Of a DNA stretch of 64,000 nucleotides, positions 41,856 through 47,617 are shown piece by piece. The stretch comes from an uncultured Pelagibacteraceae bacterium (lineage in GTDB: Bacteria; Pseudomonadota; Alphaproteobacteria; Pelagibacterales; Pelagibacteraceae). Each line of letters starts with the position of its first letter. Within the stretch, counting starts at the first letter, position 1. The translations under genes and the position numbers were made by a program. Location of the stretch: assembly GCA_902628275.1 (NCBI GenBank), contig CACOMI010000005.1, positions 62,001 to 126,000 on the forward strand, given 5' to 3'. The notes under the pieces are model-generated. The model did no database searches and was not told the DNA's origin. It saw nothing but the letters and a program-made list of their open reading frames with translations.

Positions 41856-42403
41856 ATTGTCATTATTTCTTTTTCTTTTAAAGAAACTTTACCATCTACT
41901 GATTTAATATGATCATCTGTAATAGTTTGAATTTTTTTTTCATTGGATTTTTCCTCATCTTCGCTAATTTCTTTAGACTTTAAAAGTTTTTTTAATTCTT
42001 CATTTGCTTCTCTTCTTATATTTCTTATTGATACCTTACATTTTTCACCGATTGACTTAATTAACTTTTTCAGCTCAGTTCTTCTTTCCTCATTAAGCTC
42101 AGGCACCGGTAACCTAATTAATTGTCCATCTATTTGTGGGTTTAAACCTAAGTCTGATTTTTGTATAGCAGCATCAACTAATGTAACATTACTAGCATCC
42201 CAAACCTGAATATTTATCATTCTTGGTTCAGGGGTAGTAATACTTCCAATCTGATTTATTGGCATTTGTTGACCATAAACATCGACTTTAATTAAGTCTA
42301 ACATTGATGCATTTGCTCTACCCGTTCTTAATGACGAGAGCTCTTTTGAGAATACCTCAATGGCTTTATCCATTTTAAGGTTGTATGATTTTTCATCAAA
42401 CAT
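41852..42403 (-). CDS. frr: Ribosome recycling factor
   Basis: A 183-residue factor that with EF-G splits post-termination ribosomes. Blocks: LSSLRTGRANASMLDLIKVD, PINQIGSITTPEPRMINIQV, DGQLIRLPVPELNEERRTEL, and the long C-terminal helix. It abuts the tsf stop directly. In E. coli and many alphaproteobacteria pyrH lies between tsf and frr; it is absent here. Confidence 0.97.
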   Translation of the reverse strand: MFDEKSYNLKMDKAIEVFSKELSSLRTGRANASMLDLIKVDVYGQQMPINQIGSITTPEPRMINIQVWDASNVTLVDAAIQKSDLGLNPQIDGQLIRLPVPELNEERRTELKKLIKSIGEKCKVSIRNIRREANEELKKLLKSKEISEDEEKSNEKKIQTITDDHIKSVDGKVSLKEKEIMTI

Positions 42404-43255
42404 TTATTCTCCGATCTTAATTCTATAAAACTCTTTAATCTTTAGATCTGCTATGGAAAGTTCTTTTAATATATCCTGAACTTTTTTCTTAGGTTCCATT
42501 ACCCAAGCCTGAGTTAAAAGAGCATTTTCTTCTTTAAATTTGTTCATTTTACCTAAGCTAATTTTTTTTGCAATGTCATCAGGCTTACCAGAATTTTTTA
42601 ACTCTTCAGTAACTAATTGTTGCTCTTTTTCAATTATTGCTTGATCTATCGAACTAGATTCTAAAGCCAAAGGGTTTGATGCTGCAATATGCATAGACAG
42701 TTGTTTACTAAATATTTTTACAGTATCTGAATTATCCTTAGTATCTAATGAAACCATCACTGCTAATTTTGCTACGTTGTCCTTTACAACCGTGTGTAAA
42801 TAATGATTGTTTATTCCTTGTGCATTTTCAATTGTTTTTGCTTTTCCTATAGTAATTTTTTCTCCAATTTTTGCGATTAATGCAACCAAGTTTTCATCTA
42901 CACTTTGCCCATTTTTCATTTTTACAGATTTTAATTCTTCAATATTTGAATTATTCTGATTATTAAGCTCACTTAACTCTTTTACAAAGTTTATAAAATT
43001 ATCATTTTTAGCAACAAAGTCTGTTTCACAGTTTACTTCAATAACTGATTTTTTATTATCATCTCCACTGACGACCACAACACCTTCTTTTGCATCTCTA
43101 GACATTTTTTTAGAAGCTTTTGAAATGCCTTTTACTCTTAGTATTTCAATAGCCTTATCTAAGTCACCATCAGATTCTTTTATAGCTAAATTGCAATCTT
43201 TAAAACCAGCTCCTGTAGCTTCTCTAAGTTTTTTTATCTTTCCAATATCGCTCAT
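42404..43255 (-). CDS. tsf: Elongation factor Ts
   Basis: A 283-residue nucleotide-exchange factor for EF-Tu. The N-terminal UBA-like region is [34 protein letters not shown] is the EF-Tu contact block; [11 protein letters not shown] lies in the second subdomain. ALLTQAWV is in the C-terminal part. The start overlaps the rpsB stop by one base. Confidence 0.97.
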
Positions 43256-44070
43256 TAATTTAATTTCTCCTTTTCTACTTTAGAAAATTTTTTATCTAAT
43301 TTTTCTCTGTCGATTTCCTGAATAGTCTTTGTATTATTATCTTTAATATTTTGAACTTTATCTTTTTTTGGTTCTGATAAAGGAACAGAACTTTTTGCAC
43401 TATTAATTGTCTCTTTTATTAAATTGCAATAAAGATCAATTGCTCTTCTTGCATCATCATTACCAGGAATTGGGAAATCGATATTATCTGGATTTGAATT
43501 ACTATCTAAGATTGCAATGATCGGTATTCCTAGTTTTGAAGACTCTGCAATTGCTAGAGACTCATAATTTGTATCTATAACAAATACTAAATCAGGAACT
43601 TTTTTCATTTCAGCTATCCCACCTAATGATCTTTGTAGTTTATCTTTTTTAACACTCATTTTAAGAAGCTCTTTCTTTGTAAATCCTCTGTTCTCTGCTA
43701 TTAGATCAGCTTCTAGTTTTTTTAATTTTTTAATAGAATTTGAAATTGTTCCCCAATTAGTTAGCATACCACCCAACCATCTATAATTTACAAAATATTG
43801 ATCAGTTTCCTTTGCAACTTCAGCTATAGCCTCTGAAGCTTGTTTTTTAGTTGATACAAATAATATTTTTCCATTATTTGCTATTGTTTCATAAACTTTC
43901 TCTAGAGCTAATTTTGTTAATTCAAGAGTTTGGGTAAGATCAATTATATGAATTGAATCTCTTTTCCCAAAAATATATTTCTTCATTTTTGGGTTCCATC
44001 TCAAAGTCTTATGTCCAAGATGGACGCCAGCTTCTAATAATTGTTGTATTGTTAAGTTAGGTATTTTCAT
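43255..44070 (-). CDS. rpsB: 30S ribosomal protein S2
   Basis: A 271-residue ribosomal protein. It starts with [24 protein letters not shown], the S2 signature, then [32 protein letters not shown] and [17 protein letters not shown] Lys/Glu-rich C-terminal tail of ~50 residues extends beyond E. coli S2. It heads a long envelope and translation cluster. Its leader can fold into a pseudoknot-like structure that covers the ribosome-binding site. Confidence 0.97.
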
Positions 44071-44139
44071 ATTTATTCCCGGTTAAGCCACCACAGTAAT
44101 TTCCAATTAAGGACCGGAGGTTTAAAACCAATAACTGTG
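44071..44139 (-). ncRNA. Candidate structured rpsB leader (pseudoknot, translational autoregulation)
   Basis: On the minus strand CACAGT (44134-44139) can pair with ACTGTG (44092-44097). The enclosed loop holds GGTTTTAAACC (44119-44129), a short hairpin, and CCGGT (44113-44117). The latter can pair with ACCGG (44079-44083) outside the stem, which touches the GGGA ribosome-binding site. This gives an H-type pseudoknot that could hide the start region. Such leaders fit known control of rpsB by S2; the structure here is drawn by eye. Confidence 0.6.
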
Positions 44140-44178
44140 TGCGTGTTAATTTAATTTAGGGATTATTTACAAATTTTT

Positions 44179-44208
44179 ACTATAATTAACAAGCAATTAT
44201 TTAGTTAA
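44179..44208 (-). promoter_or_regulatory. Candidate rpsB promoter
   Basis: On the minus strand TTAACT (44203-44208), an 18-base spacer and TATAGT (44179-44184) resemble a sigma-70 promoter. The -35 would overlap the dnaE stop. A start near 44172 would give a leader of about 100 bases containing the pseudoknot-like fold. Confidence 0.4.
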
Positions 44209-47200
44209 TTATTGCATGAATTTCTTGATTTCTTAAGAGATTTAGAGTTTTTCTGTCTAATTTACGAGTATTTTTTAATCTAAATTTAAGAATATTATCT
44301 CCAGAATTAAGATTAATATTTACAATTGTTTTACCATCGTCTTTTAAAATTGTGGATATTTTTTGCATTTGCACTTCAGAATTTAGCTTGAATGAAACCT
44401 CACTTATAGGACTGTTAAATAAATCTTTTAGTGAGGCTATTTTTTGAACATTTATTCTGGTTAATCGATTATCATCATTAGAAGTATTTTTAAATAAAGT
44501 TAAAATAAGAGAACTACCCTCTTTTAAAATTTCTCTATTTAATTCTAAAACATCAGAAAAAATAAATAGTTCAAATACACTTGATAAGTCAGTTAATTTT
44601 AAAACAGCGTAAGAATTTCCTTTTACAGTTTTTCTTTCTTGAACTTTTAATAATGTTGCGGCTATATTTGAGTCTTTTAAATCATCTTTTGAAATAAAAT
44701 TTGAATAATTTGTTATTTTATAATCATTAAAAATTTCCGTAAATTGATTTAATGGATGGTCTGAAATAAAGAATCCTACTGACTCAAATTCTTTTGATAA
44801 TCTTTCTTCAAATTTCCAATCTTCGATCTTGATTAAAATATCATCCTGTGCACTTTCATCCTCTGAGAATAAATCAATCTGATTAGCAGATTTATTATCA
44901 AATATATTTTTACTTTTAGCTATAATTGCGGGGATAGAATTATACAAAGCTTGTCTATTTGGGTTTAAATTATCAAATACGCCTGCTTTGACTAAACCTT
45001 CTAATTGAAGCTTGTTTATATCTTTGGGATTTACTCTGTTTATAAAATCATGAATTGACTCAAATTTTCCATTTAAAATTCTTTCCTCAACTATATTTGA
45101 TATTGCCTCGTAACCTACAGCTTTAATTCCTCCTAATGCATAATAAAATTTATCATCAATTGTTCTAAAATCAGCAAAACAATTGTTTATATCTGGACGT
45201 ACAACTTCAATATTTAATCTTTTTAATTCTTCGTAAAACTCACTTAACTTATTTTGATTAGATATATCCATAGTCATTGATGCTGCAATGAACTCTTTTG
45301 GATAATATGTTTTTAAAAATGCAGTTTGGTAAGAAATAATTGCATACGCAGCAGCATGACTTTTATTAAAGCCATATTCCGCAAATGGTTCAATTTTTAA
45401 AAAAATTCCTGCAGCAATATCTTTTGCTATTCCATTTTTAACAGCTCCAGCAATAAAACCTTGTTTCTGTTTTTCAAGTTCTGCTCTTTTCTTTTTACCC
45501 ATTGCTCTTCTCAAAAGATCAGCTTGTCCTGCAGTAAATCCTGATAATTTTTGTGCAATCTCCATTACCTGTTCTTGGTAAATAATTACACCATAAGTTG
45601 GTTTTAAAATATCTTCTAGAAGTGGGTGTAAATAATCTGGTTTTTGTTTTCCATGTTTACAATCATTATATATTGGAATATTGCTCATTGGTCCTGGTCT
45701 GTACAAAGCAACTAAGGCAATAATATCTTCAATATGATTAGGCTTCATTTGAATTAAGGCTTCTCTCATACCAGCGCTTTCAATTTGGAATAAACCAACT
45801 GTTTTACCAGTTGACATTAGATCAAAGACTTTTTGATCTTCGTAACTAATTTTTTCTATATCAAAATCTTTAATTTTTTTTCTTACAAGTTTTTGCGTAT
45901 TATTAATTACTGTAAGTGTTTTTAAGCCCAAAAAATCAAATTTTATTAAACCTGCATTTTCTGCTGAGTACATGTCGAACTGAGTAGATGGTAACAACAA
46001 ATCTGCAGTAACATCTTTGTATAATGGAACAACTTCAATGAGTTTTTTATCTGCTATTACTACTCCAGCCGCATGTGTTGCAACATTTCTATTTAGACCT
46101 TCTAATTTTAATGAGAGATCAGTAAGTTTCTTTACCCTTGGATCATCATTTATGAGTTTTTGTAATCGTGGTTCCCCAGCAATGCACTGAGTTAAATTTT
46201 GTGGTCTAGATGGATCAAAAGGTATCATCTTAGATATGCTATCAACAAATCCATATGCTAATCCCAATACTCTTCCAACGTCTCTAATTACCATTCGTGC
46301 TTTTAATTTACCAAATGTTATAATGTGAGCTACACTGTCTTTATATTTTGTAGTTAGATACTCAAAAACTTGATCTCTTTTATCCTCGCAAAAATCTATA
46401 TCAAAGTCTGGCATTGAAATTCTATCTGGATTTAAAAATCTTTCAAAAATAAGATTAAATTTTATTGGATCGACGTCTGTAATTGATAAACACCAAGCTA
46501 CTAATGAGCCAGCGCCTGAGCCTCTTCCGGGACCTACAGGGATATCATTATTTTTAGCCCATTTAATATAGTCGGCAACTATAAGAAAATAACTAGAATA
46601 TTTCATTTCTACAATAATAGAAAGTTCATGATTAAGTCTGTTTTTATATTCTTTATAAGAATTGTTATTTTCTAAATCTTCATCGCTTAAATTAAAGATC
46701 TTATTAAATTTGACTTTTAATCCATCTATGGAATCTTTTTTTAAAATTTCATCTGCATTTCCCTCTTTATCACTGCTAATATTAGGCAATATAGGGTTAG
46801 AAAATAAAGGTCTATAACTACATCTTAATGGAAAATTATAATTATTTTTTAAAGCTTCAGGTAAATCAGCAAATAACTCCGACATCTCTGAGTTGGTTTT
46901 TAAATAATGTTGGTCAGTAAATCTTAATCTGTTTTTTTCGTTTACATATGTCTTGTTACCGATACAAATTAAAGCATCATGAGCTTCATGCATTTCTTTA
47001 TCTAAATAAAAAACTTCATTAGTTGCAATAATAGGTATTTCTAAATCTAAAGATTTTTTTAAATTAAATTTTTCAAATCCAATTTCATTTTGATCATTAT
47101 GTCTTTGAATCTCTAAGTAAAATCTGTCATCAAAAGTATTTTTAATTTTATTATAAAGCTCATCAATTTCACTAAACTTTCCTTTATCAAATAATTTACC

Positions 47201-47617
47201 AAATAAACCAAAAACAGTTCCTGAAAATACGGCAACACCTTTGGAACTCCTTAATAATAATTCAAAATCTACATGTGGATCTGAAAATTCGTCGTTTTCC
47301 AAATACGATAATGATGAAAGTTCTATTATATTTTTATATCCTGATTCATTAAGAGCAAACAAAGGCAGTAAACCTATTGTTTCTCCCATTTTAAAATTTA
47401 TTTGAGTTCCGATTATTGGTTGAGTACCAGATTTTGAGATCTTATCAGCAAATTCTAGTGCACCGCATAAATTTGAGGTATCACATAAACCTAAGGATTT
47501 AATTTTATTTTTCTTAGAATATTCTTGCAAATCATCAATTCTAGCAGCTCCTTCGCAAATTGAATATTGAGTATGGATTTTTAAATGATTAAAATTTTGT
47601 GAAACAGATTCAGACAT
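44201..47617 (-). CDS. dnaE: DNA polymerase III alpha subunit
   Basis: The 1138-residue catalytic subunit of the replicative polymerase. The PHP domain is N-terminal (HLKIHTQYSICEGAARIDDL). Polymerase active-site residues Asp406 and Asp408 lie in PDFDIDFCEDKRDQVFEYL; the block VGPGRGSGAGSLVAWCLSI lies just before. ALYRPGPMSNIP and YGVIIYQEQVMEIAQ follow. A helix-hairpin-helix region and an OB-fold (about 970-1060) make up the C terminus. It starts 8 bases inside lolD. Confidence 0.97.
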   Translation of the reverse strand: MSESVSQNFNHLKIHTQYSICEGAARIDDLQEYSKKNKIKSLGLCDTSNLCGALEFADKISKSGTQPIIGTQINFKMGETIGLLPLFALNESGYKNIIELSSLSYLENDEFSDPHVDFELLLRSSKGVAVFSGTVFGLFGKLFDKGKFSEIDELYNKIKNTFDDRFYLEIQRHNDQNEIGFEKFNLKKSLDLEIPIIATNEVFYLDKEMHEAHDALICIGNKTYVNEKNRLRFTDQHYLKTNSEMSELFADLPEALKNNYNFPLRCSYRPLFSNPILPNISSDKEGNADEILKKDSIDGLKVKFNKIFNLSDEDLENNNSYKEYKNRLNHELSIIVEMKYSSYFLIVADYIKWAKNNDIPVGPGRGSGAGSLVAWCLSITDVDPIKFNLIFERFLNPDRISMPDFDIDFCEDKRDQVFEYLTTKYKDSVAHIITFGKLKARMVIRDVGRVLGLAYGFVDSISKMIPFDPSRPQNLTQCIAGEPRLQKLINDDPRVKKLTDLSLKLEGLNRNVATHAAGVVIADKKLIEVVPLYKDVTADLLLPSTQFDMYSAENAGLIKFDFLGLKTLTVINNTQKLVRKKIKDFDIEKISYEDQKVFDLMSTGKTVGLFQIESAGMREALIQMKPNHIEDIIALVALYRPGPMSNIPIYNDCKHGKQKPDYLHPLLEDILKPTYGVIIYQEQVMEIAQKLSGFTAGQADLLRRAMGKKKRAELEKQKQGFIAGAVKNGIAKDIAAGIFLKIEPFAEYGFNKSHAAAYAIISYQTAFLKTYYPKEFIAASMTMDISNQNKLSEFYEELKRLNIEVVRPDINNCFADFRTIDDKFYYALGGIKAVGYEAISNIVEERILNGKFESIHDFINRVNPKDINKLQLEGLVKAGVFDNLNPNRQALYNSIPAIIAKSKNIFDNKSANQIDLFSEDESAQDDILIKIEDWKFEERLSKEFESVGFFISDHPLNQFTEIFNDYKITNYSNFISKDDLKDSNIAATLLKVQERKTVKGNSYAVLKLTDLSSVFELFIFSDVLELNREILKEGSSLILTLFKNTSNDDNRLTRINVQKIASLKDLFNSPISEVSFKLNSEVQMQKISTILKDDGKTIVNINLNSGDNILKFRLKNTRKLDRKTLNLLRNQEIHAIIN

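Follow-up and report, generated by a model that had tools for sequence, protein, structure and literature searches.

The rpsB gene of the window, the 64,000-nucleotide stretch of Pelagibacteraceae DNA analyzed here, is preceded by a leader (44078-44143, minus strand) that folds into a genuine, conserved RNA pseudoknot, both helices of which show compensatory changes. This leader is the form that the rpsB motif (Rfam RF01815) takes in SAR11, and by homology it probably serves autorepression by ribosomal protein S2. The element is already known, having been published in 2009 from the same bacterial group.

Genomic Context of the rpsB Leader

The rpsB gene (43255-44070, minus strand), which begins with an ATG at 44070 and encodes ribosomal protein S2, is taken as the target of the regulation and as the presumed origin of the repressor, and its product matched the TIGR01011 profile (rpsB_bact) with 315 bits against a cut-off of 76. 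The upstream gene dnaE (44201-47617) is separated from rpsB by 130 bases. A weak promoter-like site, TTAACT-18-TATAGT (44179-44208, minus strand), was located upstream of the motif; the promoter scan of the window near rpsB gave two sites versus 2.2 expected from shuffles, which is not above chance, and a search of literature titles on SAR11 transcription start data found none matching the topic. On the downstream side, the start of tsf (elongation factor Ts; 42404-43255, minus strand) shares one base with the rpsB stop, an overlap that makes translational coupling of the two genes plausible. The open reading frame coordinates place tsf and frr end to end and make frr and uppS overlap, and the order then continues with a cdsA-like gene, a dxr-like gene, bamA, a 170-amino acid reading frame without assignment, fabZ, lpxD, lpxA, an lpxI-like gene and lpxB, the three "like" genes scoring under the cut-offs of their own models.

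The UMP kinase gene pyrH, commonly found between tsf and frr, is missing at the tsf-frr junction of the window (42403-42404). None of the 46 genomes of the SAR11 family, including single-contig genomes 99-100% complete, gave a TIGR02075 match above the cut-off, and the weak matches in this family were mostly frames of about 350-425 amino acids that look like other amino-acid kinases. In f2, the second family of Pelagibacterales, 10 of 12 genomes matched TIGR02075 above the cut-off; in G061 and G062 pyrH lies some 1.7 kb beyond the rpsB motif. Genes resembling cmk and adenylate kinase are present, and no paper in the literature searched mentions both Pelagibacter and UMP kinase.

Structure of the Leader

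An initial annotation had proposed a CACAGT/ACTGTG stem whose loop carries CCGGT able to pair with ACCGG, and both its letters and its range (44071-44139) were correct, the element being read on the minus strand. In the RNA, CACAGU (44139-44134) pairs with ACUGUG (44097-44092) to form the core of stem P1, whose full region (44089-44143, minus strand) was delimited from the sequence, the RF01815 alignment and the double changes found in SAR11. Beyond a bulged A at 44140 (A14), which is invariant across 80 SAR11 leaders, the stem continues with C-G-C (44143-44141) facing G-U-G (44091-44089); the 44142-44090 pair is a G-U in the window and is non-standard in 7 of the 65 distinct SAR11 leaders. 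The loop of P1 holds two short hairpins on the same strand, namely P2 (44119-44129), with three base pairs (GGU/ACC) that are paired in 78-80 of the 80 SAR11 leaders, and P3 (44103-44112), with two pairs (CC/GG) that are kept in 79 of the 80 and lengthened by one more C-G pair in 15 of the 80. Comparison within SAR11 and across the class assigned the J2/3 segment UCCGGU (44113-44118, minus strand) as the 5' arm of the pseudoknot, and the 3' arm, ACCGGG (44078-44083, minus strand), lies in the ribosome landing zone, its ACCGG core ending 8 nt before the rpsB ATG. The element is therefore a pseudoknot, as had been annotated, but not the bare H-type form that had been suggested, since P1 is longer and its loop contains P2 and P3.

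The junction at 44114-44121 reads ACCUCCGG in 73 of the 80 SAR11 leaders, a sequence that contains CCUCC, the core of the 16S anti-Shine-Dalgarno. The same letters were found in none of the other 110 leaders of the 190-leader set described below, and they have no obvious partner within the leader.

Conservation and Compensatory Changes within SAR11

By itself, the window leader is weak evidence for a pseudoknot. Any 6-bp stem combined with a 5-bp knot close to the start occurred in 2283 of 10,000 dinucleotide shuffles of the 90-nt leader (23%), an equally GC-rich stem and knot in 54 of 10,000 (0.5%), and the nested fold of the leader showed no excess of stability over shuffles (z -0.06). It is the conservation and the compensatory changes among relatives that place the structure far beyond chance.

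The SAR11 leaders were picked by the S2 protein only. Named genome contigs gave 581 S2 relatives, of which the best 80 were kept, on contigs whose titles read Pelagibacteraceae, Pelagibacterales or Pelagibacter; one locus (L109) lacked the S2 start and was dropped, which left 79 usable loci, the nearest ones among the 581 relatives. In all 79, as in the window, the two knot arms match and the core of the stem is paired, and in all 79 the leader is located directly before rpsB. When the window and the 79 loci were aligned (80 rows, 65 of them distinct, with L135 off by one column), 98.6% of the 1300 cells were paired versus 96.2% in shuffles, and five pairs were changed on both sides in a total of 33 cells, four of these pairs belonging to P1 and one to the knot. 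The paired fraction, the number of doubly changed pairs and the number of doubly changed cells were each reached by 0 of 500 shuffles, values to be read with the caveat that kinship alone can lift sequences above such shuffles without any structure. The number of further pair types was not exceptional in this alignment (98 of 500 shuffles as high), and shifting the partners by one to three columns lowered the pairing to 31-53%.

The helices contribute unequally to this signal within SAR11. Four of the nine P1 pairs showed changes on both sides; P2 is almost invariant and thus provides little covariation evidence, and most knot pairs hardly vary, a single type of double change being seen there, in the leaders L085 and L106.

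The Pseudoknot across the Class

The set was extended to 190 leaders. Besides the window and the 79 SAR11 loci it comprises 18 additional f1 leaders, 17 of which belong to other genera, together with 22 leaders of f2 and 70 from families of the class outside the order, the class being taken as Alphaproteobacteria. The 70 were drawn from 176 genomes of the class with an RF01815 match, and 40 were fetched from 99 genomes of the order that matched R1, a model built from the 80 leaders; genomes that have lost the motif are accordingly not counted among the 190, since leaders beyond the S2-selected set were chosen by model match. The printed RF01815 alignment does not include the knot pairs, so selection with RF01815 should not favor compensation in the knot.

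The five core knot pairs were formed in 949 of the 950 cells of this set, a value reached by 0 of 10,000 shuffles. The knot was CCGGU/ACCGG in 182 leaders, CUGGU/ACCAG in five leaders from three families (f21, f86 and f101) and CCUGU/ACAGG in the two SAR11 leaders mentioned above; the sole broken leader (L246) carries a U-U mismatch. Seven leaders, which by family membership come from four families and may have changed independently, were doubly changed, and 0 of 10,000 shuffles reached seven doubly changed cells. These counts refer to a parser that tolerates up to two departures per arm and would miss strongly divergent arms, and three leaders were read as exceptions, L187 with its own limit for the loop search, L246 by placing it by hand and L189 under a looser rule. 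The covariation check that the initial annotation had called for thus came out in its favor, with both helices conserved and compensated in SAR11 and the knot also across the class.

Identity with the Known rpsB Motif

The rpsB motif was found in the dnaE-rpsB gap of "Candidatus Pelagibacter ubique" and is described as a P1 stem, short or absent P2 and P3 hairpins and a pseudoknot in which J2-3 pairs with the 3' extension of P1; in P. ubique P2 has 3 bp, and P3 has two pairs or none (Meyer et al. 2009, PMC2704228). The window leader is the same element, agreeing with this description (PMC2704228) in its lineage, its position in the dnaE-rpsB gap, its P1, P2 and P3 elements and its five-pair J2-3 knot. 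It lies directly before rpsB, its P1 closes the junction, and its five-pair knot shows compensatory changes. It differs from the motif and from RF01815 in its score below the gathering cut-off and in its short spacing to the AUG, usually without a separate Shine-Dalgarno sequence.

The comparison with known families, also proposed in the initial annotation, gave an RF01815 match at 44062-44143 on the minus strand with 31.1 bits (E 1.4e-4), under the gathering cut-off of 40 bits. For that reason a default Rfam scan misses the leader: at the gathering level only three tRNAs were reported in the window, and a lower threshold was needed to detect the motif. RF00127 (t44) was absent from the four matches obtained up to E 10 for 43950-44260. 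Among 101 relatives, the own genome included, RF01815 matched 39 at E ≤ 0.001 and none at the gathering cut-off. Across the class it matched 176 of 288 genomes, 74 of them above that cut-off, and on four named loci it matched three below the cut-off and gave nothing at E 0.01 for L085, which has the knot double change. R1 found the motif in 70 of the 101 relatives and in 99 of 118 genomes of the order, leaving without a match 31 relatives and 19 order genomes (4 of the same genus and 15 of f2). The RF01815 gathering cut-off shuts out the SAR11 forms found here, though the motif was described from SAR11.

Spacing to the Start Codon

The first ATG follows the end of the knot arm at a median distance of 8 nt in the window and the 79 SAR11 loci (from the best 80 of 581), 8 nt in the 18 further f1 leaders and 9 nt in the 22 f2 leaders, versus 17 nt in the 69 parsed leaders outside the order (all but one of the 70). 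In these measurements the start was set at the first ATG downstream of the arm, a rule that misparsed L084 and probably further leaders, given that the distances outside the order span 3-71 nt. A Shine-Dalgarno match of at least 4 bases was present downstream of the arm in 65 of the 69 leaders outside the order; within the order, 110 of 120 leaders had not even 3 bases and 4 of 120 had 5, and in f2 leaders a GGAG overlaps the knot arm itself. Shine-Dalgarno motifs are sparsely used by the genome overall: 9 of 53 long reading frames of the window, whose starts were not curated, had a match of at least 4 bases, versus about 12% in shuffles. The own genome contains a site like the 16S end whose anti-Shine-Dalgarno letters are the usual ones, with a single mismatch at another place.

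With its 3' arm 8-9 nt from the AUG and mostly without a separate Shine-Dalgarno, the knot has an arm that sits at the ribosome landing place. This position suits the earlier wording of a knot over the ribosome-binding site, and does so better in this order than in the class as a whole. The short spacing without a separate Shine-Dalgarno in SAR11 and f2 may be a new lineage detail, no mention of either feature having been found in the rpsB section or the Discussion of Meyer et al. (PMC2704228).

Proposed Mechanism and Alternative Explanations

According to the most likely model, which transfers S2 autorepression from Escherichia coli by homology, the 5' untranslated region folds into P1 with its bulged A, the short P2 and P3 hairpins and a 5-6-bp pseudoknot between UCCGGU and ACCGGG. 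Free S2, when in excess over 30S subunits, would bind and stabilize this knotted leader; the 30S subunit could then not load, and rpsB and the coupled tsf would be translated less. Direct occlusion would be the likeliest step, the knot arm occupying the ribosome landing zone. A more tentative extension, possible but held with rather less than even confidence, is that in Pelagibacterales the S2 knot has slid onto the start site and the separate Shine-Dalgarno has been lost, so that the 3' arm is itself the landing site and the leader acts by direct occlusion, as a minimal switch that genome streamlining has shaped.

Self-control by the ribosomal protein had been anticipated in the initial annotation, and here the agreement with the published S2 leader motif, whose E. 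coli counterpart reportedly mediates autorepression by S2 (PMC10931766), stands, the role of S2 in this organism being predicted by homology. A 2024 review reports that E. coli S2 represses translation of rpsB-tsf with the help of S1, that the mechanism is called unclear because the ribosome-binding site lies outside the S2 operator, and that control may be lost upon a small deletion affecting a conserved bulge (PMC10931766); the bulged A of SAR11 would correspond to that bulge. The E. coli rpsB leader (RF00127 t44, L252) likewise stands before rpsB and has CACAC and GUGGAGG at the base of P1, and by eye GGGGU/ACCCC at the places of the knot arms would be a further compensated form. It differs in having 24 nt, including AGAGGU, between the knot arm and the AUG, and RF01815 gave no match in it up to E 1. 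Given the position of the E. coli ribosome-binding site outside the operator (PMC10931766), occlusion cannot simply be transferred between E. coli and this lineage. The operators of S15 (rpsO) and S4 (alpha operon) are also ribosomal protein leaders whose ribosome-binding site is controlled by a pseudoknot (PMC10931766), but they involve other proteins and other folds, and the comparison is one of manner of working only.

Conservation of a fold does not reveal what binds it, and the structure might instead serve ribosome standby, mRNA stability or S1-dependent loading, without feedback by a protein in SAR11. SAR11 bacteria have lost much regulation, which would fit such a role, as would the requirement for S1 besides S2 in E. 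coli (PMC10931766). We consider it unlikely, given that the leader precedes rpsB in every usable locus of the S2-selected set (79, from the best 80 of 581) and that the homologous E. coli leader reportedly mediates S2 repression (PMC10931766). Somewhat less likely still is a two-state switch in which UCCGGU pairs with a local AUUGGA, leaving the start open, or with ACCGGG, closing it. The minimum-energy nested fold of the window does use the local UCCGGU-AUUGGA hairpin, all six pairs of which are kept in 36 of the 80 SAR11 leaders and five in 23; however, 18 leaders keep two or three of these pairs and 3 keep four, whereas the knot retains all six of its pairs in 75 of the 80, and P3, which is incompatible with the local hairpin, is kept in all but one.

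The stem arms also double as an inverted repeat in the DNA, so the repeats could serve a promoter, the end of dnaE or a binding site, with RNA pairing being incidental. This explanation appears very improbable, because the compensatory changes suit RNA pairing, a terminator scan found no terminator-like site in 44000-44400, and a CTTG..TA-type promoter-like box upstream of P1 in class leaders makes it likely that P1 is transcribed. Such a box was present in 19 of 39 leaders outside the order versus 0.8% when shuffled, at 11-14 nt in 11 of the 19, and a GTA-containing A/T element was present upstream of P1 in 67 of 78 SAR11 leaders versus 34% when shuffled, both patterns having been picked after viewing the leaders. 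These boxes suggest that transcripts start just before the structure.

The idea that S2 might through this leader also control the envelope genes downstream is speculation drawn from the tight packing of the genes. Polar effects past tsf are possible, given the rpsB-tsf overlap, the tsf-frr abutment and the frr-uppS overlap; the review describes, in its section 2.2, S2 repression of the rpsB-tsf mRNA only (PMC10931766).

Implications

A motif first seen in SAR11 is now confirmed there with many more genomes, and compensatory evidence has been added for its pseudoknot. In the SAR11 genomes searched, the Rfam cut-off hides the rpsB motif. The shortened SAR11 leader offers a small, clean system for studying how S2 blocks translation, a step whose mechanistic detail is described as unclear (PMC10931766). 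If direct occlusion by the knot arm is true in SAR11, it would contrast with the situation in enterobacteria, whose operator is said not to include the ribosome-binding site.
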